Shown in pieces: positions 26,524-34,605 of a DNA stretch of 64,000 bases. Each line of letters starts with the position of its first letter. The stretch's first letter is position 1. Position numbers and translations under genes: made by a program. The notes under the pieces are model-generated. The model saw only the letters and a program-made list of their open reading frames with translations, was not told the DNA's origin and searched no databases. Origin of the DNA: Pseudomonas paralcaligenes (GTDB lineage Bacteria > Pseudomonadota > Gammaproteobacteria > Pseudomonadales > Pseudomonadaceae); NCBI RefSeq assembly GCF_019655855.1, contig NZ_BPFX01000007.1:372001-436000 (forward strand), read 5' to 3'.

Positions 26524-29500
26524 ATGCACCTCCTGCGCGCCCAGGCCGGCGTCACCCTGCCGGCCGACAGCATCGCCGACCTCGGCCAGACCCCGGCCGA
26601 GCTGGTGATCCTCTGCACCGGCGACTCCCACCTGTCGCTGCTGGCCGAAGTGGCGCGCGAGCTACCCAAGGACTTCCCCAGCCTGCGCCTGGCCAGCCCG
26701 GCGCAGTTGCCCAATCACGCTTCCGTGGACTTCTACGTCGAGGAAGTGCTGCGCCACGCCAAAGTCATCCTGATCTCGGTGCACGGCGGCGTCAGCTACT
26801 GGCGCTACGGCATCGAGCGCTTGGTCGAGCTGGGTCGCCAAGGTACGAAGATCATCCTGGTGCCCGGTGACGACAGCCCCGATCCCGAGCTGAGCGCGCT
26901 GAGCAATGTGCCGAGCAAAGACAGCCAGCGCCTGTGGCAGTACCTGCGCCAGGGCGGCGCGGACAACGCCCGCCATCTGCTGCACTGCGTCGCCAGCCGC
27001 TGGCTGAACCGCGACTACCCGTGGAGCGAGCCACGCGCCCTGCCGCGCACGCTGATCCATCACCCGCGCCACGGCGAGGCAACCCTCGACCACTGGCGCG
27101 CCGACTGGCAGCCGGGCCGGCCGGTGGCGGCGCTGCTGTTCTACCGCGCCCAGGTACAGGCTGGTAACACCGCCTTCGTCGACACCTTCTGCCAGCGCCT
27201 GCAGGCCCAGGGCCTCAACCCGCTGCCCATCGCCGTCGCCAGCCTCAAGGAAACCGAATGCCTGGCGCAGGTCGAGGCCTGGCTGGACGAAACCGACACG
27301 TCGGTGATCCTCAATACCACCGGCTTCGCCCAGTCCAACCCGGAAGCGCCACAGGAGCGACCGTTCCGTCGCGACGTGCCGGTGCTGCAGGCACTCTGCG
27401 CCCTCGATAGCGAGGAGCAATGGCAGGCCAGCGCCCAGGGCCTGGGCCCGCGCGACCTGGCCATGCATATCGCCCTGCCCGAACTGGACGGCCGCCTGAT
27501 CACCCGACCGATCAGCTTCAAGGGCGTGGCCGCGCGCAGCGAGCGCAGCCAGAGCGACGTGGTGCGCTATCGCCCGCACCTGCCAGGCATGGACTTCGTC
27601 GCCGAGCTGGCGCTGCGCTGGACCCGGCTTGCGGCCAAGATCAACGCCGACAAGCGCGTCGCCCTGATCCTGGCCAACTACCCGACCCGCGACGGTCGCA
27701 TCGGCAACGGCGTCGGCCTGGACACCCCCGCCGCCGCGCTGAATATCCTGCGTGCCCTGCAGCATCAGGGTTATCCGGTCGAAGGCCTGCCGCACGACGG
27801 CACCGCGCTGATTCACCAGTTGCTCGGCGGCGTGACCAATGACCTCGACAACCTCGACTTGCGCCCCTGCGCCCAGAGCCTGGCGCTGGACGACTACCAG
27901 CACTGGTTCGCCAACCTGCCCGAGGCCAACCAGCGCGCCGTGCTGGAGCGCTGGGGCCCGCCCGAGCAGGACCCGATGTACCGCAGCGGCCGGCTGATGA
28001 TCGCCGGCCTGCGCTTCGGCCTGACCTTCGTCGGCATCCAGCCGGCACGTGGCTACCAGCTGGATGCCGCAGCGGTGTACCACGACCCGGACCTGGTGCC
28101 GCCACACGGCTATCTGGCCTTCTACTGCTGGCTACGCACGGCCTTCGCCGTCGACGCGCTGATCCACGTCGGCAAGCACGGCAACCTGGAGTGGCTGCCG
28201 GGCAAGAGCGTTGGCCTGTCCGAGGCCTGCTGGCCGAGCGCGATCCTCGGCCCGCTGCCCAATCTCTACCCCTTTATCGTCAACGACCCCGGCGAGGGCG
28301 CCCAGGCCAAGCGCCGCACCCAGGCGGTGATCCTCGACCACCTGATGCCGCCGCTGACCCGCGCCGAGAGCTACGGCCCGCTGCGTGACCTGGAGCGCCT
28401 GGCCGACGAGTATTACGAGGCCAGCCAGCTCGACCCGCGCCGCGCCGTGGAGCTGCGTGGCGAGATCCAGCGCAAGGTGCGCGAGGCCAGCCTCGACCGC
28501 GAGCTGGGCCTGCAGGTCAACGACGATCCGGACAGCTGGCTGCCGCAACTGGACGCCTACCTGTGCGACCTCAAGGAATCGCAGATCCGTGACGGCCTGC
28601 ACTGCTTCGGCGAATCACCGAGCGGGCGCCTGCGCCGCGACACCCTGCTGTCCCTGGTGCGCATCCCGCGTGGCGACGGTCACGGCCAGCACGCCAGCCT
28701 GCTGCGCGCCCTGGCCCAGGACCTGGCGCTGGACTTCGACCCGCTCGGCGGCGAGCCGGCCAAACCCTGGAACGGCCCGCGTCCAGATTGCCTGCAAGCA
28801 CTCAGCGACGATCCCTGGCGTAGCCGCGGCGACACTCGCGAGCGCCTGGAGCTGCTGGCCCTACAACTGATCGAACAGCCCGAATCGCCCGCGCCCGGCC
28901 CCTCCAGCGCCGCGGTACTGAACGAGCTACGCGGCCATATCGCCCCGCTGCTGGATGCCTGCGGCAGCGCCGAGATGAACGGTCTGCTCGCGGCGCTTGA
29001 GGGCCGCTTCGTGCCGCCGGGCCCAAGCGGCGCACCCAGCCGCGGGCGCCTGGACGTGCTGCCCACTGGCCGCAACTTCTATTCGGTGGACGTGCGCCAC
29101 CTGCCCACGCCCACCGCCTGGCGTATCGGCGTGCAGAGCGCTGAGCGCCTGCTGGAGCGCCACCTGCAGGACGAGGGCGAGCACCTGCAGCGCCTGGGCC
29201 TGTCAGTGTGGGGCACGGCGACCATGCGCACCGGCGGCGACGACATCGCCCAGGCCCTGGCCCTGCTCGGCGTGCGCCCGGTGTGGCAGCCCGGCAGCCA
29301 GCGGGTCGAACGCATCGAAGTACTGCCGCTGGAACAGCTCGGCCGCCCACGGGTGGACGTAACCCTGCGCGTATCCGGCTTCTTCCGCGACGCCTTCGCC
29401 AACCTGATCCGCCTATTCGACCAGGCCGTGCAGGCAGTGGCCGAGTTGGACGAGCCGGAAAACATGAACCCGCTGGCCGCCCGCGTCTGGCAGGAAACCC

Positions 29501-30258
29501 TGTCCCATCAGGACCAAGGGCTGGACCCGGTCGAGGCACGGCGCCAGGCCGGCTGGCGCATCTTCGGCGCCAAGCCGGGCGCCTATGGCGCCGGCATCCA
29601 GAATGCGGTGGAAGAACGCCTGTGGCAGACCCGCGCCGATCTCGCCGAGGTCTACCTGAACTGGGGCGGCTACGCCTATGGCCAGGGCGCCGAGGGTTTG
29701 CCGGCGCGTGCGCAGTTCGCCGAACGCCTGCAGCAGCTGCAGGCGGTGCTGCACAACCAGGACAACCGCGAGCACGACATCCTCGATTCCAACGACTACT
29801 ACCAGTTCCAGGGCGGCATGCTGGCGGCGGTCGAGACCCTGCGCGGCGCCAAGGCCGCCAGCTACTTCGGCGACAGCAGCCAGCCGGACAACCCGCGCAT
29901 CCGCACCCTCAAGGAAGAACTCGGCCGCGTGGTGCGCGCCCGCGCGGTGAACCCCAAGTGGATCGCCGGAATGAAGCGCCACGGCTACAAGGGCGCCTTC
30001 GAGCTGGCCGCCACGGTCGACTATCTGTTCGGTTTCGACGCCACCAGTGAACTGGTCGACGACCACCAGTACGCCCTGTTGGCCGATGCCTACCTGCTGG
30101 ACAAGGACACCCGCGACTTCATCCAGCAGCACAATCCCGGCGCGTTGCAGGACATGCTCGAACGCCTGCTGGAAGCCCAGCAGCGCGGCCTCTGGCAGCA
30201 GCCCGGCGAGTACCGGGCGGCGCTGGAAAACCTGCTGCTGGATGCGGAGGAGTCATGA
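26524..30258 (+). CDS. cobN: Cobaltochelatase large subunit CobN
   Basis: 1244-residue CobN, the tetrapyrrole-binding subunit of aerobic cobaltochelatase inserting cobalt into hydrogenobyrinate a,c-diamide. Signatures include RPISFKGVAARSERSQSDVVRY near 329, LILANYPTRDGRIGNGVGLDTP near 382, IHVGKHGNLEWLPGKSVGLS near 547, and MRTGGDDIAQALALLGVRPVW near 901. Length is normal. Downstream of cobW; partner ATPase subunits lie beyond the DAHP synthase gene. Confidence 0.96.
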   Translation: MHLLRAQAGVTLPADSIADLGQTPAELVILCTGDSHLSLLAEVARELPKDFPSLRLASPAQLPNHASVDFYVEEVLRHAKVILISVHGGVSYWRYGIERLVELGRQGTKIILVPGDDSPDPELSALSNVPSKDSQRLWQYLRQGGADNARHLLHCVASRWLNRDYPWSEPRALPRTLIHHPRHGEATLDHWRADWQPGRPVAALLFYRAQVQAGNTAFVDTFCQRLQAQGLNPLPIAVASLKETECLAQVEAWLDETDTSVILNTTGFAQSNPEAPQERPFRRDVPVLQALCALDSEEQWQASAQGLGPRDLAMHIALPELDGRLITRPISFKGVAARSERSQSDVVRYRPHLPGMDFVAELALRWTRLAAKINADKRVALILANYPTRDGRIGNGVGLDTPAAALNILRALQHQGYPVEGLPHDGTALIHQLLGGVTNDLDNLDLRPCAQSLALDDYQHWFANLPEANQRAVLERWGPPEQDPMYRSGRLMIAGLRFGLTFVGIQPARGYQLDAAAVYHDPDLVPPHGYLAFYCWLRTAFAVDALIHVGKHGNLEWLPGKSVGLSEACWPSAILGPLPNLYPFIVNDPGEGAQAKRRTQAVILDHLMPPLTRAESYGPLRDLERLADEYYEASQLDPRRAVELRGEIQRKVREASLDRELGLQVNDDPDSWLPQLDAYLCDLKESQIRDGLHCFGESPSGRLRRDTLLSLVRIPRGDGHGQHASLLRALAQDLALDFDPLGGEPAKPWNGPRPDCLQALSDDPWRSRGDTRERLELLALQLIEQPESPAPGPSSAAVLNELRGHIAPLLDACGSAEMNGLLAALEGRFVPPGPSGAPSRGRLDVLPTGRNFYSVDVRHLPTPTAWRIGVQSAERLLERHLQDEGEHLQRLGLSVWGTATMRTGGDDIAQALALLGVRPVWQPGSQRVERIEVLPLEQLGRPRVDVTLRVSGFFRDAFANLIRLFDQAVQAVAELDEPENMNPLAARVWQETLSHQDQGLDPVEARRQAGWRIFGAKPGAYGAGIQNAVEERLWQTRADLAEVYLNWGGYAYGQGAEGLPARAQFAERLQQLQAVLHNQDNREHDILDSNDYYQFQGGMLAAVETLRGAKAASYFGDSSQPDNPRIRTLKEELGRVVRARAVNPKWIAGMKRHGYKGAFELAATVDYLFGFDATSELVDDHQYALLADAYLLDKDTRDFIQQHNPGALQDMLERLLEAQQRGLWQQPGEYRAALENLLLDAEES

Positions 30259-30275
30259 ATGCCACGCCTCCCGTC

Positions 30276-30341
30276 GTAGGAACGAGCTCTGCTCGCGAAA
30301 CTGTTGTGCCGCATCCATTCGCGAGCAGAGCTCGCTCCTAC
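30276..30341. repeat. REP element, GTAGGAACGAGCTCTGCTCGCGAA family
   Basis: A 66-bp inverted repeat: GTAGGAACGAGCTCTGCTCG at one end and the complement CGAGCAGAGCTCGCTCCTAC at the other. Lies 17 bases after cobN and may form its 3' hairpin. Confidence 0.85.
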
Positions 30342-30347
30342 AGGTAT

Positions 30348-30407
30348 GTAGCCCGGATGCAATCTGGGAACGCGCCCCAAAGCCCGCGCGGGTTTCACCC
30401 GCCCTAC
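30348..30407. repeat. REP element, GTAGCCCGGATG...CCCGCCCTAC type
   Basis: Begins GTAGCCCGGATGCAATC and ends CGCGGGTTTCACCCGCCCTAC (arms only partly complementary). The right arm is the same as in 7989-8039. It forms a pair with the preceding repeat between convergent cobN and the DAHP synthase gene. Confidence 0.7.
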
Positions 30408-30446
30408 GCCAGCCTCGCGCCATATCTCCCAAGAGAGAGACGAAGC

Positions 30447-31520
30447 TCAGCGCCCCGCCCGCAGCCGCTCGGCCGCCTCGCGCAGCATCGCCTCGGTGCC
30501 GCTCCAGCCCAGGCAGCCGTCGGTGATCGACACGCCGTAGCGCAGCTCACTGGACAGCGCCTGGCAGCCATCCTCCAGATGGCTCTCCAGCATCACCCCG
30601 CGCAGGCTGGCGTCGCCGGCCAGGCGCTGGTCGAGCACGTCGCTCAGCACCGCCGGCTGGCGCAGCGGGTCCTTGCCGCTGTTGGCGTGGCTACAGTCGA
30701 CCATGATGCGCGCGGCGATGCCCTGCTTCTCCAGGCTCGCCCGCGCCACGGCCACGCTGGCCGCATCATGGTTCGGCCCGCCATGGCCGCCGCGCAGCAC
30801 CAGGTGGGTATCCGGGTTGCCGTCGGTCTCGACCAGTGCCGGGCGGCCCAGGCCGTCCACGCCGAAGTGCTGGTGCGGGTGCGCCGCCGAGCGCATGGCA
30901 TCGCAGGCAATCGACAGGCTGCCATCGGTACCGTTCTTGAAGCCCACCGGCACATCCAGGCCGCTGACCAGCTCGCGGTGCACCTGCGATTCGCTGGTGC
31001 GCGCGCCGATGGCGGCCCAACCCAGCAGGTCGTCGAAGTAGCCCGCCACCAGCGGCTGCAGCAGCTCGGTGGCCACCGGCAGGCCGCGTTCGAGCATGGC
31101 CAGCATCAGCCGGCGCGACAGTTCCAGGCCGCCGACCATGTCGCCGCTGCCGTCCAGCTGCGGGTCATAGACCAGGCCCTTCCAGCCGATGGTGGTGCGC
31201 GGCTTCTCGACGTAGGCACGCATCACCAGCAGCAGCTGGTCGCTCACCTCGGGGGCCAGTGCGGCCAGGCGGTCGGCGTATTCGAGGGCGGAAATCGGAT
31301 CGTGCAGGGAACAGGGGCCGACGACGACCAGCAGGCGCGAGTCGGAGCCGTCGAGCACGGCGCGGATGGCCTCGCGCTGGGTCTGTACCTGGCTGGTGAG
31401 AGCGGCGGACAGCGGCAGGCGCTGGCGCAGATCGGTGGGGTTCGGCAGCGGCGTTGCGCGGCGGCGAGTGGTGGAAGGCGGCACGGCTTGTGCGCGCAGA
31501 GCGGTAACGGAAGCATTCAT
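30447..31520 (-). CDS. aroF: Class I 3-deoxy-7-phosphoheptulonate (DAHP) synthase
   Basis: 357-residue DAHP synthase, first enzyme of the shikimate pathway (PEP + erythrose 4-phosphate). Signatures: VVGPCSLHDPISALEYADRL near 68, MRAYVEKPRTTIGWKGLVYDP near 99, GARTSESQVHRE, VGFKNGTDGS and IMVDCSHANSGK near 267. The N-terminal extension (first 35 residues) is of the AroFGH type that carries allosteric sites. The symbol is generic: the effector is not evident. Preceded by a two-stage peptide leader, so expression should answer to aromatic aminoacyl-tRNA supply. Confidence 0.94.
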   Translation of the reverse strand: MNASVTALRAQAVPPSTTRRRATPLPNPTDLRQRLPLSAALTSQVQTQREAIRAVLDGSDSRLLVVVGPCSLHDPISALEYADRLAALAPEVSDQLLLVMRAYVEKPRTTIGWKGLVYDPQLDGSGDMVGGLELSRRLMLAMLERGLPVATELLQPLVAGYFDDLLGWAAIGARTSESQVHRELVSGLDVPVGFKNGTDGSLSIACDAMRSAAHPHQHFGVDGLGRPALVETDGNPDTHLVLRGGHGGPNHDAASVAVARASLEKQGIAARIMVDCSHANSGKDPLRQPAVLSDVLDQRLAGDASLRGVMLESHLEDGCQALSSELRYGVSITDGCLGWSGTEAMLREAAERLRAGR

Positions 31521-31565
31521 GGCTGTGGTCCTCGCCCGGCGTGGCCTCATGCCACGCGCGGCGCG

Positions 31566-31670
31566 CTATCTGGGTGTTCGACTGGAATCTCGGTGGTGCG
31601 CGGCAGCGCTGCTAAATCGCCAGGCGGAGGTGCGGTAGCTGCGGTAAGAAGTGCGGTAGTAAGCGGTCAT
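31566..31670 (-). CDS. Tyr-rich 34-residue upstream reading frame of aroF
   Basis: Starts MTAYYRTSYRSYRTSAWRFS: four Tyr within the first 12 residues, then Trp and Phe. AGAGGA lies seven bases before the ATG. The frame lies between the intrinsic attenuator (31711-31750) and aroF, ending 45 bases before its start. A 7-bp stem (GCGTGGC/GCCACGC) follows its stop. A second regulatory peptide acting on translation or on rho is inferred; it could also be a chance frame. Confidence 0.5.
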   Translation of the reverse strand: MTAYYRTSYRSYRTSAWRFSSAAAHHRDSSRTPR

Positions 31671-31710
31671 GTTTCGATCCTCTGTGTGCATCGTGTTGGC
31701 CTTGTGGGCC

Positions 31711-31750
31711 GAAAAAACAAAAACCCCGGTCGGGTGGCCGACCGGGGTTT
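31711..31750 (-). terminator. Intrinsic terminator (attenuator) in the aroF leader
   Basis: On the minus strand, AACCCCGGTCGG pairs with CCGACCGGGGTT around a short loop and is followed by TTTGTTTTTT. It lies 50 bases after the stop of the YFFYGYWF leader peptide and about 190 bases before aroF, the position of a transcription attenuator. Confidence 0.88.
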
Positions 31751-31799
31751 CGTGAAACTGGCTGGTGGCGACCCTTTGCTCTGGGGCGCCTGTGGGGTA

Positions 31800-31928
31800 T
31801 CAGGCGCGCCGCTGGCTAAACCAATACCCATAAAAGAAATAAGCGACGGCCTCGACCTGCGCGCGCACGCCTGCCACGCCGACAGCGGCGGAGCGAACAA
31901 GGCGGTTCAGGGAAGGACGAGACGACAT
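31800..31928 (-). CDS. Aromatic-amino-acid leader peptide of aroF
   Basis: 42-residue peptide starting MSSRPSLNRLVRSAAVG and containing the block AYFFYGYWFSQRRA at its C terminus: three Tyr, three Phe and one Trp within eight consecutive codons (TAT TTC TTT TAT GGG TAT TGG TTT). GGAG stands six to seven bases before the ATG. Ribosome stalling at this block, when charged Phe/Tyr/Trp tRNAs are scarce, would prevent formation of the downstream terminator. This is the standard logic of attenuation; the anti-terminator fold was not computed. Confidence 0.85.
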   Translation of the reverse strand: MSSRPSLNRLVRSAAVGVAGVRAQVEAVAYFFYGYWFSQRRA

Positions 31929-32147
31929 GCTGATCTCCAAAACGATGGTTACCACGCTAACCGATCGTCCCTCCCACTTTCAACCCTTGGAACCTGCTTA
32001 CGACCTCCTGGCTGTCGGCCATACGGCGTTAAAAGCAGCCTCGGAATGCTCATGTACTACTTGTACATTGCGCTTCCTCGGCCACTTTTGCCTTGTCTGG
32101 CTCTAATCCAGAAGCTCGTAAACAGATTCACCACTTGAGGTAACGCC

Positions 32148-33149
32148 ATGCAGCCCCACTTCCCCCTGGCCGCCGTGGTGGCCGCCGACGAGCTCAAGCT
32201 GGCGCTGTGCCTGGCCGCCATCGACCCAGCTCTGGGCGGCGTGCTGATCGAAGGCCCACGCGGCATGGCCAAGTCCACCCTGGCGCGCGGCGTGGCCGAC
32301 CTGCTCGACGGCGGGCGCCTCGTCACCCTGCCGCTGGGCGCCAGCGAGGAACGCATCGTCGGCACCCTCGACCTGGATGCCGCACTCGGCGAGGGCCGCG
32401 TGCGCTTCTCCCCCGGCGTGCTGGCCAACGCCCACGGCGGCGTGCTCTACGTCGACGAGGTCAACCTGCTGCCCGACCACCTGGTGGACCTGCTGCTCGA
32501 CGTCGCCGCCAGCGGCATCAACCACATCGAGCGCGATGGCCTATCACACAGCCACCCAGCGCGCTTCGTGCTGATCGGCACCATGAACCCCGAGGAAGGC
32601 GAGCTGCGCCCGCAACTGCTCGACCGCTTCGGCCTCAAGGTGCAGCTCGGTGGCACGCCCGAACCGGCGCAGCGCGCGGAAATCGTCCGCCGCCGCCTGG
32701 CCTTCGACGGCGCCCCCGAAGCCTTCCTCGCCCAGTGGCAAGGTGAGCAGGACGCCCTGCGCCAGCGCTGCATGGATGCCCGCCAGCGCCTGGGCGCAAT
32801 CGCCCTGGACGACGCCAGCCTGGACGCCATCGCCCAGCGCTGCTTCGCCGCCGCCGTCGATGGCCTGCGCGCCGACTTGGTGTGGCTGCGCGGCGCCCGC
32901 GCCCACGCGGCCTGGCGCGGCGCCAGCCAGATCGAAGCGCAGGACATCGACGCCCTGGAGCCCTTCGTCCTCGCCCACCGCCGTCGCGAACACACGCCGC
33001 CCGCCGCTAGCCCGCCGCCAGCACCAAACCAGTCGCAACAGCAGCCAGCACAACCGGACCAGGGCGAAGGCCAGTGGGGCGCAATGCCGCCGCAGACCGT
33101 GGCCGTCGGCGAGCGGCGCGAGCCACCGAACTGGCCAAAAAAGCCCTGA
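32148..33149 (+). CDS. ChlI/BchI-like AAA+ ATPase of cobaltochelatase
   Basis: 333-residue AAA+ ATPase related to the magnesium chelatase I subunit. Walker A GPRGMAKSTLAR (36-47), Walker B GGVLYVDEVNLL (about 97-108), sensor 1 LIGTMNPEEGELRPQLLDRFG (about 142-162). The last 45 residues are a Pro/Gln-rich linker like the one joining I- and D-type domains in ChlD. In pseudomonads lacking a classical CobS/CobT chelatase pair, such a ChlI/ChlD-like pair next to cobN is thought to drive cobalt insertion. GAGG precedes the ATG; overlaps the VWA gene by 76 bases. Confidence 0.88.
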   Translation: MQPHFPLAAVVAADELKLALCLAAIDPALGGVLIEGPRGMAKSTLARGVADLLDGGRLVTLPLGASEERIVGTLDLDAALGEGRVRFSPGVLANAHGGVLYVDEVNLLPDHLVDLLLDVAASGINHIERDGLSHSHPARFVLIGTMNPEEGELRPQLLDRFGLKVQLGGTPEPAQRAEIVRRRLAFDGAPEAFLAQWQGEQDALRQRCMDARQRLGAIALDDASLDAIAQRCFAAAVDGLRADLVWLRGARAHAAWRGASQIEAQDIDALEPFVLAHRRREHTPPAASPPPAPNQSQQQPAQPDQGEGQWGAMPPQTVAVGERREPPNWPKKP

Positions 33150-33841
33150 GCATCCGCCCGCGCCAGGCCCCAGGCGCGGATGCCCTACCCCTCCCCGGCC
33201 AGGCCCAAGGCGGACGCAGCGGCGCTCGCAGCACGGGCACGCCCACGCGCATCGACTGGCCAGCAACGCTCACCCACGGCCGCCCGCACCGCCGCGCCGA
33301 CCTACACTGGCACGCCCGCCGCCTGCGCCCCGGCGAGCTGTGGCTGGTGATCGTCGACGCCTCGGCCAGCACCCGCCGCCACGGCGCCCTGGCCCAGGCC
33401 AAGGGCCTGCTCGCCGAGCTGTTCGCCAGCGCCTACCGCCAGCGCGCGCGCCTGGCCGTGCTCGAAGCCGGCGGCGCCCAGCCGCGCTGGCTATGGCAGG
33501 GACAGAAGGCATCGCCTGAACTGCACGCCTGGCTGCACCAGCTCGGCGCCGGCGGCGGCACGCCGATCATCGAGGCGCTGCAATTGGCCACGCCCTGGTT
33601 GCTCCGTCGCCAGCACCACAAACCGGGCGAACAACAGCGCCTGCTGCTGCTCACCGACGGCCGCCTGCGCGACTGGCCGCAGCTTGCCGCGCTACCCTGC
33701 CCCGGCCTGCTGCTGGACATCGAGCGCGCGCCCATCCGCCTCGGCCGCGCCCGCCAGCTGGCCGGCGAGCTGGGCGCCGACTACCACCATATCGACGAAC
33801 TGGCGCCAGCCTCCCGCGCGCCCACCTGGAACAGACCATGA
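33074..33841 (+). CDS. VWA-domain subunit of cobaltochelatase (ChlD-like)
   Basis: About 255 residues: a basic linker (RGRRRAARATELAKKALSIR), then a von Willebrand A domain from about residue 85 with a complete MIDAS site (DASAS near 95, GGGTPIIEAL near 157, LLTDGR near 189). Pairs with the preceding ATPase to form the ATP-hydrolysing half of the chelatase. The GTG at 33074 is the most upstream plausible start; the real start inside the linker is uncertain. Overlaps cobF by four bases (ATGA). Confidence 0.83.
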   Translation: MGRNAAADRGRRRAARATELAKKALSIRPRQAPGADALPLPGQAQGGRSGARSTGTPTRIDWPATLTHGRPHRRADLHWHARRLRPGELWLVIVDASASTRRHGALAQAKGLLAELFASAYRQRARLAVLEAGGAQPRWLWQGQKASPELHAWLHQLGAGGGTPIIEALQLATPWLLRRQHHKPGEQQRLLLLTDGRLRDWPQLAALPCPGLLLDIERAPIRLGRARQLAGELGADYHHIDELAPASRAPTWNRP

Positions 33842-34605
33842 AAGAACTGCTGCTGGTCGGCATCGGCGCCGGCGACCCGGATTACATCACCCATCAGGCG
33901 ATCAAAGCCCTGCGCCGCAGTGATGTGATCTTCCTGATGGACAAGGGCCCGGCCAAACACAAGCTCAACGCCCTGCGCCGGGAAATCTGCGAGAGCTTCC
34001 TCGAAGGCCACAACCCACGCTTCGCCGAGGGCCAGCAGCCGGAGCGCGAACACGACGCCGCCGACTACCGTGCCAGCGTGGACGAGCTGAACCGCGACAA
34101 GCAGGCAGTGTTCGAGCAACTGATCGACGAGCAGATGAGCGACGGAGAAGTCGCCGCCTTCATGGTCTGGGGCGACCCCTCGCTGTACGACAGCAGTATC
34201 CGCATCATCGAGTCCATCGCAGCAACGCGTAGCGACCTCAGCTATGACGTGATCCCCGGCATCACCAGCCTGCAGGCCCTCACCGCCCGCCACCGCATAC
34301 CGCTGAACCAGATCGGCCGCGCCGTGGAAATCACCACCGGCCGCCTGCTCGCCGAGGGCTGGCCCCGGGGCGTGGACAGCGTGGCGGTGATGCTCGACGC
34401 CAAGGACACCTACCTACGCTTCGTCGGCCAGCAGCTGCACATCTACTGGGGCGCCTACGTGGGCACGACGGACGAAATCCTCATCGCCGGCCCGCTGGAC
34501 GAGGTGGCCGAACGCATCGCCACGACCCGCACCCAGGCGCGGGAGCGCAACGGCTGGATCATGGACAGCTATCTGCTGCGCAAAAACGGATCAGCGGCGG
34601 GCTGA
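33838..34605 (+). CDS. cobF: Precorrin-6A synthase (deacetylating)
   Basis: 255-residue tetrapyrrole methylase that methylates C1 of precorrin-5 and extrudes acetate, a step specific to the aerobic pathway. MKELLLVGIGAGDPDYITHQA at the N terminus, VWGDPSLYDSSIRIIE near 109, and VIPGITSLQALTARHRIPLNQIG near 140. Its ATG overlaps the VWA gene stop. Presence confirms that the oxygen-dependent route is used. Confidence 0.95.
   Translation: MKELLLVGIGAGDPDYITHQAIKALRRSDVIFLMDKGPAKHKLNALRREICESFLEGHNPRFAEGQQPEREHDAADYRASVDELNRDKQAVFEQLIDEQMSDGEVAAFMVWGDPSLYDSSIRIIESIAATRSDLSYDVIPGITSLQALTARHRIPLNQIGRAVEITTGRLLAEGWPRGVDSVAVMLDAKDTYLRFVGQQLHIYWGAYVGTTDEILIAGPLDEVAERIATTRTQARERNGWIMDSYLLRKNGSAAG

Follow-up and report, generated by a model that had tools for sequence, protein, structure and literature searches.

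A conserved tyrosine-rich second reading frame lies between a probable attenuator and aroF in Pseudomonas and its relatives

The leader of an aroF-type gene was analyzed within a 64,000-nucleotide stretch of Pseudomonas paralcaligenes DNA (hereafter the window), where direct reading of the minus strand gave the order ORF1, terminator, ORF2 and aroF (Table 1). The original prediction had described a 42-residue leader peptide with the aromatic run AYFFYGYWF, an intrinsic terminator behind it, and a 34-residue second frame with its own ribosome site; all three are present and their coordinates proved exact. The aroF product matched PRK12755.1 (504.6 bits) and TIGR00034 (429.5 bits), both above their NCBIfam cut-offs, and we take PA2943 to be the orthologue in P. 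aeruginosa. The gene is flanked by cobN and by a gene for a cobaltochelatase-like ATPase (its best match scored below cut-off), with cobF farther out, which sets an aromatic-synthesis gene among cobalamin genes (26524-34605). Between cobN and aroF lies a 24-nt inverted repeat (30276-30341; 96% complementary, arms 18 nt apart), presumably of the Pseudomonas REP type. No aromatic cluster was seen in the 801 bases read at a DAHP synthase paralogue in the same genome.

Table 1 Features of the aroF leader, in window coordinates
Feature	Position	Strand	Basis
Shine-Dalgarno site of ORF1, GGAGA	31934..31938	-	direct sequence reading
ORF1, 42-residue leader peptide with AYFFYGYWF	31800..31928	-	translation MSSRPSLNRLVRSAAVGVAGVRAQVEAVAYFFYGYWFSQRRA
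Attenuator RNA, match to Rfam RF00627 "Pseudomonas sRNA P15"	31723..31842	-	96.5 bits, E 2.8e-20
Intrinsic terminator hairpin, stem of 14 pairs, then TGTTTTTT	31720..31751	-	sequence scan
Shine-Dalgarno site of ORF2, AGAGGA	31678..31683	-	sequence
ORF2, 34-residue Tyr-rich second leader frame	31566..31670	-	translation MTAYYRTSYRSYRTSAWRFSSAAAHHRDSSRTPR
Frozen core TGGCGATTTA (Trp-Arg-Phe), kept as nucleotides	31613..31622	-	Arg and Phe codon counts
CCTCCGCCTGGCG within ORF2, predicted partner of 31541-31530 (aroF ribosome site), window clade only	31618..31630	-	folds
CGAACAC, another conserved stretch, just before the ORF2 stop	31574..31580	-	Arg-Thr codon counts
Hairpin between the ORF2 stop codon and the aroF ribosome site	31533..31565	-	single-sequence fold
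Shine-Dalgarno site of aroF, GAGGA	31529..31533	-	sequence and fold
aroF-type DAHP synthase (3-deoxy-7-phosphoheptulonate synthase), ATG at 31520	30447..31520	-	NCBIfam

The trp and phe leaders work by attenuation, and the first half of the aroF leader is built like the trp and pheA attenuators, with a frame of the ORF1 type, aromatic codons, hairpins and a terminator ahead of a biosynthetic gene. The covariance model score of 96.5 bits, against a gathering threshold of 70, places the window's sequence in the P15 family, and a P15 match was also found in five of the ten relatives scanned. The match spans the ORF1 aromatic codons through the terminator, and local hairpins precede the terminator both in the predicted fold and in the P15 structure. 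Orthologous loci whose upstream sequence was long enough numbered 79 (80 minus L066), and among these a simple pattern detected an ORF1-type aromatic cluster in 75; an aromatic frame is visible by eye in three that the pattern missed (L068, L071 and L080), and the 520 bases inspected for the last, L078, held none. A crude rule placed a terminator 3' of ORF1 in 68 of the 79. Stage one therefore has both the product-codon frame and the terminator ahead of the gene that mark an attenuator, and from these sequence features it looks like a ribosome-mediated transcription attenuator of the DAHP synthase gene. The proposal that this part answers to Phe, Tyr and Trp is borne out in its anatomy (the cluster and the terminator), from which we infer the response itself. 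P15 reportedly came from a bioinformatic sRNA screen, and Rfam types it as a gene (sRNA), not as a leader; it coincides with the aroF attenuator and has probably been misclassified as a Pseudomonas sRNA gene.

The core of ORF2, GGCG[AC]TTT[AT], was found in 75 of the 79 orthologous leaders and was absent from four, all titled as Salinicola (L064, L065, L069 and L070). A family search added 27 loci (L114-L140), every one with ORF2: 26 were detected by script and one, L136, by eye, its Trp having changed to Gly while the bases GGCGATTTA were kept. When the script was applied without its aromatic filter to the 107 loci of the orthologue and family searches, a GGCG-any-TT[T/C] frame was recovered in 102 and none in five; what the filter had removed were unrelated frames at other places in five loci, and no ORF2 had been lost to it in this set. 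One ORF2 missed by the script (L034) was seen by eye. At the level of the order, ORF2 is present in L143, L144, L146 and L147, and seven loci (L141, L142, L145 and L148-L151) have, by eye, an ORF1-type frame and terminator without ORF2. The script returned no ORF2 match in L152-L165, whose DAHP synthases are 51-54% identical. Ahead of the ORF2 start, GAGG, AGGA or GGAG occurs in 151 of 152 loci, a set for which entry required a looser 3-base match. A protein search retrieved 86 relatives of the 50-residue form of ORF2 found in the fluorescens group, and all readable source names among them are hypothetical or uncharacterised protein; no Rfam family matched ORF2 in the window or the ten loci scanned.

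Stage one without stage two was thus observed in 11 related loci (the four Salinicola and the seven order-level ones), which shows stage two to be dispensable for the attenuator. Judged from this distribution rather than from a tree, ORF2 seems to be an accessory to an attenuator of wider occurrence, either lost or independently absent where it is missing. The same 11 loci, which keep an ORF1-type frame and have no ORF2, are the one point in favor of ORF2 being a random frame, chance or decay, 3' of an ordinary attenuator. Against this, 152 loci (83 after thinning) conserve the ribosome site, the in-frame Tyr run and the frozen core; because ORF2 is conserved the chance reading is refuted, and we regard its probability as negligible. 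Conservation of both frames had been put forward as a check, with loss of the second frame, of its Tyr codons or of the terminator hairpin in close relatives refuting two stages. No such loss was seen in close relatives: ORF1 cluster and ORF2 core each persist in 75 of 79 leaders, and Tyr codons are kept in close and distant relatives alike. On comparative grounds, ORF2 is a strongly conserved, probably regulatory element.

Composition was examined after thinning the ORF2s of the 152 loci at 93% similarity to 83 distinct ones, all required to contain at least two Tyr or Phe. Of the 1,179 residues from the start to W-R-F, 24.7% are Tyr; beyond that motif the share is 0.1% of 2,050. At least one Tyr precedes the core in 83/83 and at least two in 82/83, the last lying one to nine codons before the Trp of the core (within six codons in 77/83). 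The position of Tyr floats between species and its codons vary silently (TAC 248, TAT 100), so that decoding of Tyr codons fits better than a fixed nascent-chain motif. Synonymous-biased substitution, also expected from the original prediction, was seen in some architectures of ORF2 and not in others. In the commonest (39 distinct), pS/pN was 0.371/0.143 before the core and 0.172/0.133 after it, and in a related architecture (5 sequences) it was 0.321/0.137 before the core. Contrast was weak or lacking in window-like architectures (0.504/0.366, 0.49/0.432 and 0.217/0.274) and weak in one further architecture (0.624/0.424). As this set was also selected for part of the core, along with two or more aromatic residues, the value of 0/0 for W-R-F says little. 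By these substitution counts, clear contrast is confined to fluorescens-like architectures, and purifying selection at the peptide level is weak in window-like ones. Stage two shares one feature of a translational attenuator, a selected leader frame with its own ribosome site.

Codon use at the core was counted in 93 distinct ORF2s selected by TGGCG-any-TT[T/C] and at least two aromatics, a selection under which the Arg and Phe codons could vary at the third position alone; L095 (a misplaced hit) and L109 were set aside. L109 has an intact core and a frame shifted near its end, either a natural variant or a sequencing error. The Arg codon is CGA in 92/93 and the Phe codon TTT in 93/93, the exceptions around the core being CGC in L060 and a Cys after W-R-F in L138. 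Elsewhere CGA is rare, accounting for 68 of 1,986 Arg codons (3.4%) in the first 300 codons of aroF genes and for 2 of 125 Arg codons before the core in ORF2s. The frozen CGA and TTT set against this rarity indicate that the core (UGG CGA UUU) is held as nucleotides or specific codons, beyond its amino acids alone, as far as codon counts can tell.

Such conservation raises the possibility that the core is the binding site of a trans-acting factor, a protein or a small RNA, with ORF2 coding secondary. From Pseudomonas to Halomonas the core stays frozen at its synonymous sites, and a second CGA is conserved too, the Arg of an Arg-Thr pair near the ORF2 end being CGA in 59/62. The same reading leaves unexplained why Tyr is confined to the region before the core, why the start site is conserved and why Tyr codons change silently, and we consider it distinctly improbable. 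Several other roles for the core were considered and set aside. Complementary 8-mers to the core occur between -400 and +230 in 92/103 loci compared with 41/103 in shuffles; pairing with GGGUCGCC of the P15 region was rejected because this partner changes in some lineages (e.g., L017, by eye) while the core stays constant. Programmed frameshifting was rejected since inspection revealed no slippery heptamer and the aroF frame is not constant relative to ORF2. Several positions fit an RNA polymerase pause site, but the +1 base varies (by eye), and tRNA mimicry and pairing with 16S rRNA were likewise dropped by eye. A search of the window's genome with the pattern TGGCGNTTTANC gave one other exact TGGCGATTTAGC, at L113:1501-1512, where the next bases resemble those after the aroF core and a HAD-like frame lies downstream (by eye); with its different context and reading frame, this was put down to coincidence.

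A pattern with further complementary segments after the core matched 71 loci. In 26 aligned representatives (including L147, added by hand and one base out of register), the post-core stretch is gapless except for a 3-nt insertion in L077. Helix 1 (8 pairs) begins 8 nt past the UUU codon and helix 2 (6 pairs) interleaves with it, giving an H-type pseudoknot. Across the 26 rows, 94.5% of cells were paired (helix 1, 90.9%; helix 2, 99.4%), with a covariation score of 0.186 and both-side changes at 4 pairs in 13 cells; one helix 1 pair (columns 22 and 46) is unpaired in 13/26, and the number of pair types was equalled in 42/500 shuffles. Partners slid by +3 (one codon) still scored 0.121, with 11 both-side cells and 54.3% paired, so that coding phase accounts for part of the covariation signal. 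Since the 26 rows had been picked with a pattern that included helix 2, a recount was made without any helix pattern (thresholds of at least 6 of 8 helix 1 pairs and at least 5 of 6 helix 2 pairs). Both helices were found at fixed positions in 34 of 36 distinct long-form ORF2s, L075 and L183 failing, and in 0 of 38 distinct short-form ORF2s, the window's kind. A pseudoknot model (R1), used with stricter filters, hit 18 of 390 genomes of the order, once per genome, five hits belonging to the window's family and the remaining 13 to a single further family; the window's own locus scored 18.7 bits (E 3.06) and falls outside the pseudoknot group. Based on these pairings, an H-type pseudoknot is a feature of the long-form relatives.

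Ribosome pausing is favored by a pseudoknot at the mRNA entry site, a short distance downstream, and the H-type pseudoknots of pausing and frameshift sites likewise have two stems at a fixed short distance after two codons. They differ from the case here in that the aroF leader has neither a slippery heptamer nor a constant aroF frame, and the window's ORF2 has no pseudoknot. The resemblance suggests that ORF2 might encode an arrest peptide, whose W-R-F chain would halt the ribosome at CGA-UUU when aromatic product is abundant, aided by the pseudoknot and lowering AroF. W-R-F is near-universal among ORF2s, CGA is a rare codon here, and the pseudoknot stands 8 nt past UUU at the same place in the aligned rows, as the pausing geometry would have it. 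Yet the part of the peptide ahead of W-R-F differs among species in where its residues fall and how they are spaced, unlike that of arrest peptides as we know them, the locus with Gly for Trp (L136) keeps the nucleotides, and short-form ORF2s lack the pseudoknot altogether; arrest by the peptide is an improbable reading.

The region joining ORF2 to aroF takes two forms. In Pseudomonas-like loci a hairpin starts within a few bases of the ORF2 stop, and its far side meets the aroF ribosome site or falls just short of it (26 structures). The stop-to-start stretch folds at -24.4 kcal/mol in the window and at -7.6 to -28.8 kcal/mol in 50 representatives thinned from 125 (the weakest being L060 at -7.6 and L063 at -11.0). 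The hairpin comes from single-sequence folds, and RNAalifold on the ragged junction alignments gave almost no consensus (-0.35 and -0.97). In 16 loci labeled Halomonas-like as a group, by their likeness to Halomonas-titled loci, the ORF2 stop and the aroF start overlap or are 2-8 nt apart; in three more of this kind (L179, L183 and L073) the distance is 22-26 nt. Under both layouts a ribosome finishing ORF2 would be close to the aroF ribosome site, an arrangement suggestive of coupling. The terminator scan found no second intrinsic terminator after ORF2 in the window.

How ORF2 might act on the aroF site was explored by folding, with models that leave out pseudoknots, co-transcriptional folding and proteins. 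In the predicted window fold, CCTCCGCCTGGCG of ORF2 (31630-31618) pairs with 31541-31530 and covers the aroF Shine-Dalgarno site. Placing a ribosome on the last Tyr codon raised the predicted openness of the aroF site and start in the window (0.41 without, 0.57 with it) and in L114 (0.15 without, 0.56 with it); among codon shuffles the window ranked at 0.38 of 16 shuffles, which is unremarkable, and L114 at 0.06. Mean openness without and with the ribosome was 0.396/0.367 in 20 Halomonas-like, 0.419/0.420 in 25 long-form and 0.447/0.470 in 38 short-form loci, and a gain above 0.1 was predicted in 8 of the 83 (0/20, 1/25 and 7/38, respectively). Over these 83 loci, real ORF2s were no better at closing the aroF site than their codon-shuffled versions (mean ranks 0.516, 0.585 and 0.518), and own-species pairing of ORF2 with the aroF site was hardly better than swapped pairing (mean ranks 0.483, 0.458 and 0.403). 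Core-anchored helices of at least 8 pairs occurred in 34% of own, 20% of swapped and 4% of shuffled combinations for the 38 short-form loci, in 16%, 8% and 3% for the 25 long-form Pseudomonas-like loci, and in 15%, 18% and 4% for the 20 Halomonas-like loci. The pseudoknot does not act as a general switch of the aroF site either, as openness barely moved: without and with it, means were 0.311 and 0.356 in 18 Halomonas-like loci (control mask, 0.322) and 0.347 and 0.323 in 25 other loci, L061 and L076 having been dropped beforehand. The idea that ORF2 sequesters the aroF ribosome site in general thus found weak or no support over the 83 loci; masking is predicted by the folding models in the window's clade and fails as a general rule.

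These observations can be arranged into a mechanism with two checks. At stage one, ORF1 with its Tyr, Phe and Trp codons would control formation of the P15 terminator. When transcription continues beyond it, another ribosome would translate ORF2, for which the evidence is its conservation, and a shortage of Tyr, Trp or Phe tRNA would halt this ribosome among the Tyr codons or on reaching W-R-F. The halted ribosome would then adjoin the nucleotide-frozen RNA element, with the pseudoknot next to it in many species, and its position may alter the translation of aroF, whose ribosome site lies close by. If other leader peptides are a guide, starvation would yield more AroF. In the window's clade, the folds predict that a stopped ribosome would free the aroF ribosome site from its pairing with ORF2 bases; other clades would need another step. 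We put a two-stage leader with a ribosome-read second check acting around aroF translation at close to an even chance. Its fuller form is more tentative, somewhat short of even: that the Tyr-rich frame sets the ribosome against a near-invariant nine-nucleotide element (joined by a pseudoknot in the long form) and so tunes AroF per read-through transcript, as an undescribed class of leader. A ribosome-read check leaves the frozen AUUUA part of the core unaccounted for.

In a different role for ORF2, its translation would govern whether Rho, or a nuclease of the RNase E type at the AU-rich core, reaches the RNA between the terminator and aroF. RNase E cleaves at the consensus RN/WUU, which is fitted by the core GAUUU, AU-rich amid RNA that is GC-rich; much of what would otherwise go untranslated past the terminator is taken up by ORF2, and parts past the core look C-rich (by eye). 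Plain Rho polarity would work in the wrong direction, however, since a stalled ribosome bares the RNA downstream, and the seven order-level loci with ORF1 and without ORF2 also speak against such a role. Control through Rho, which the original prediction had suggested beside translation, or through a nuclease is judged unlikely, and the ribosome-read check on aroF translation is kept as the preferred reading.

The two-stage layout is, by its recurrence across the leaders compared, conserved, and it is undescribed as far as was searched. The frozen core, the pseudoknot of many relatives and the arrangement of stop, hairpin and ribosome site at aroF go beyond the original prediction. If the two-stage reading is true, the pseudomonad entry into aromatic synthesis would be checked twice per mRNA, in transcription and then through a second peptide, and P15, now listed as a small RNA, would become the opening half of a leader. 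It would also bring in an RNA element not described before, with a pseudoknot and a W-R-F core frozen at the nucleotide level, and offer a compact system for asking why two sensors stack on one gene. To our knowledge, textbook attenuators have no second aromatic reading frame after the terminator.

Titles and abstract openings of the open-licence literature gave no description of an ORF2 leader, a search in which older work on pseudomonad DAHP synthases or P15 may be missing. Premature 3' ends in P. aeruginosa leaders are discussed in one study, aroF not being among the passages seen (PMC8297930). The rimP leader, with its tandem terminators, is also made of two stacked regulatory units, but these are two terminators; the parts of that source consulted mention no second peptide, and a term search of them gave no aroF, DAHP or P15 (PMC2965389). 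At ermB, according to the sections available to us, two leader peptides (ErmBL and ErmBL2) are both needed for induction by translational attenuation (PMC8274638). The likeness lies in two short leader frames before one gene; the ermB inducer is an antibiotic (PMC8274638), whereas the aroF leader has pathway-product codons and an intrinsic terminator between its frames. On the portions seen, the ermB leader is the nearest precedent found for stacked peptides.
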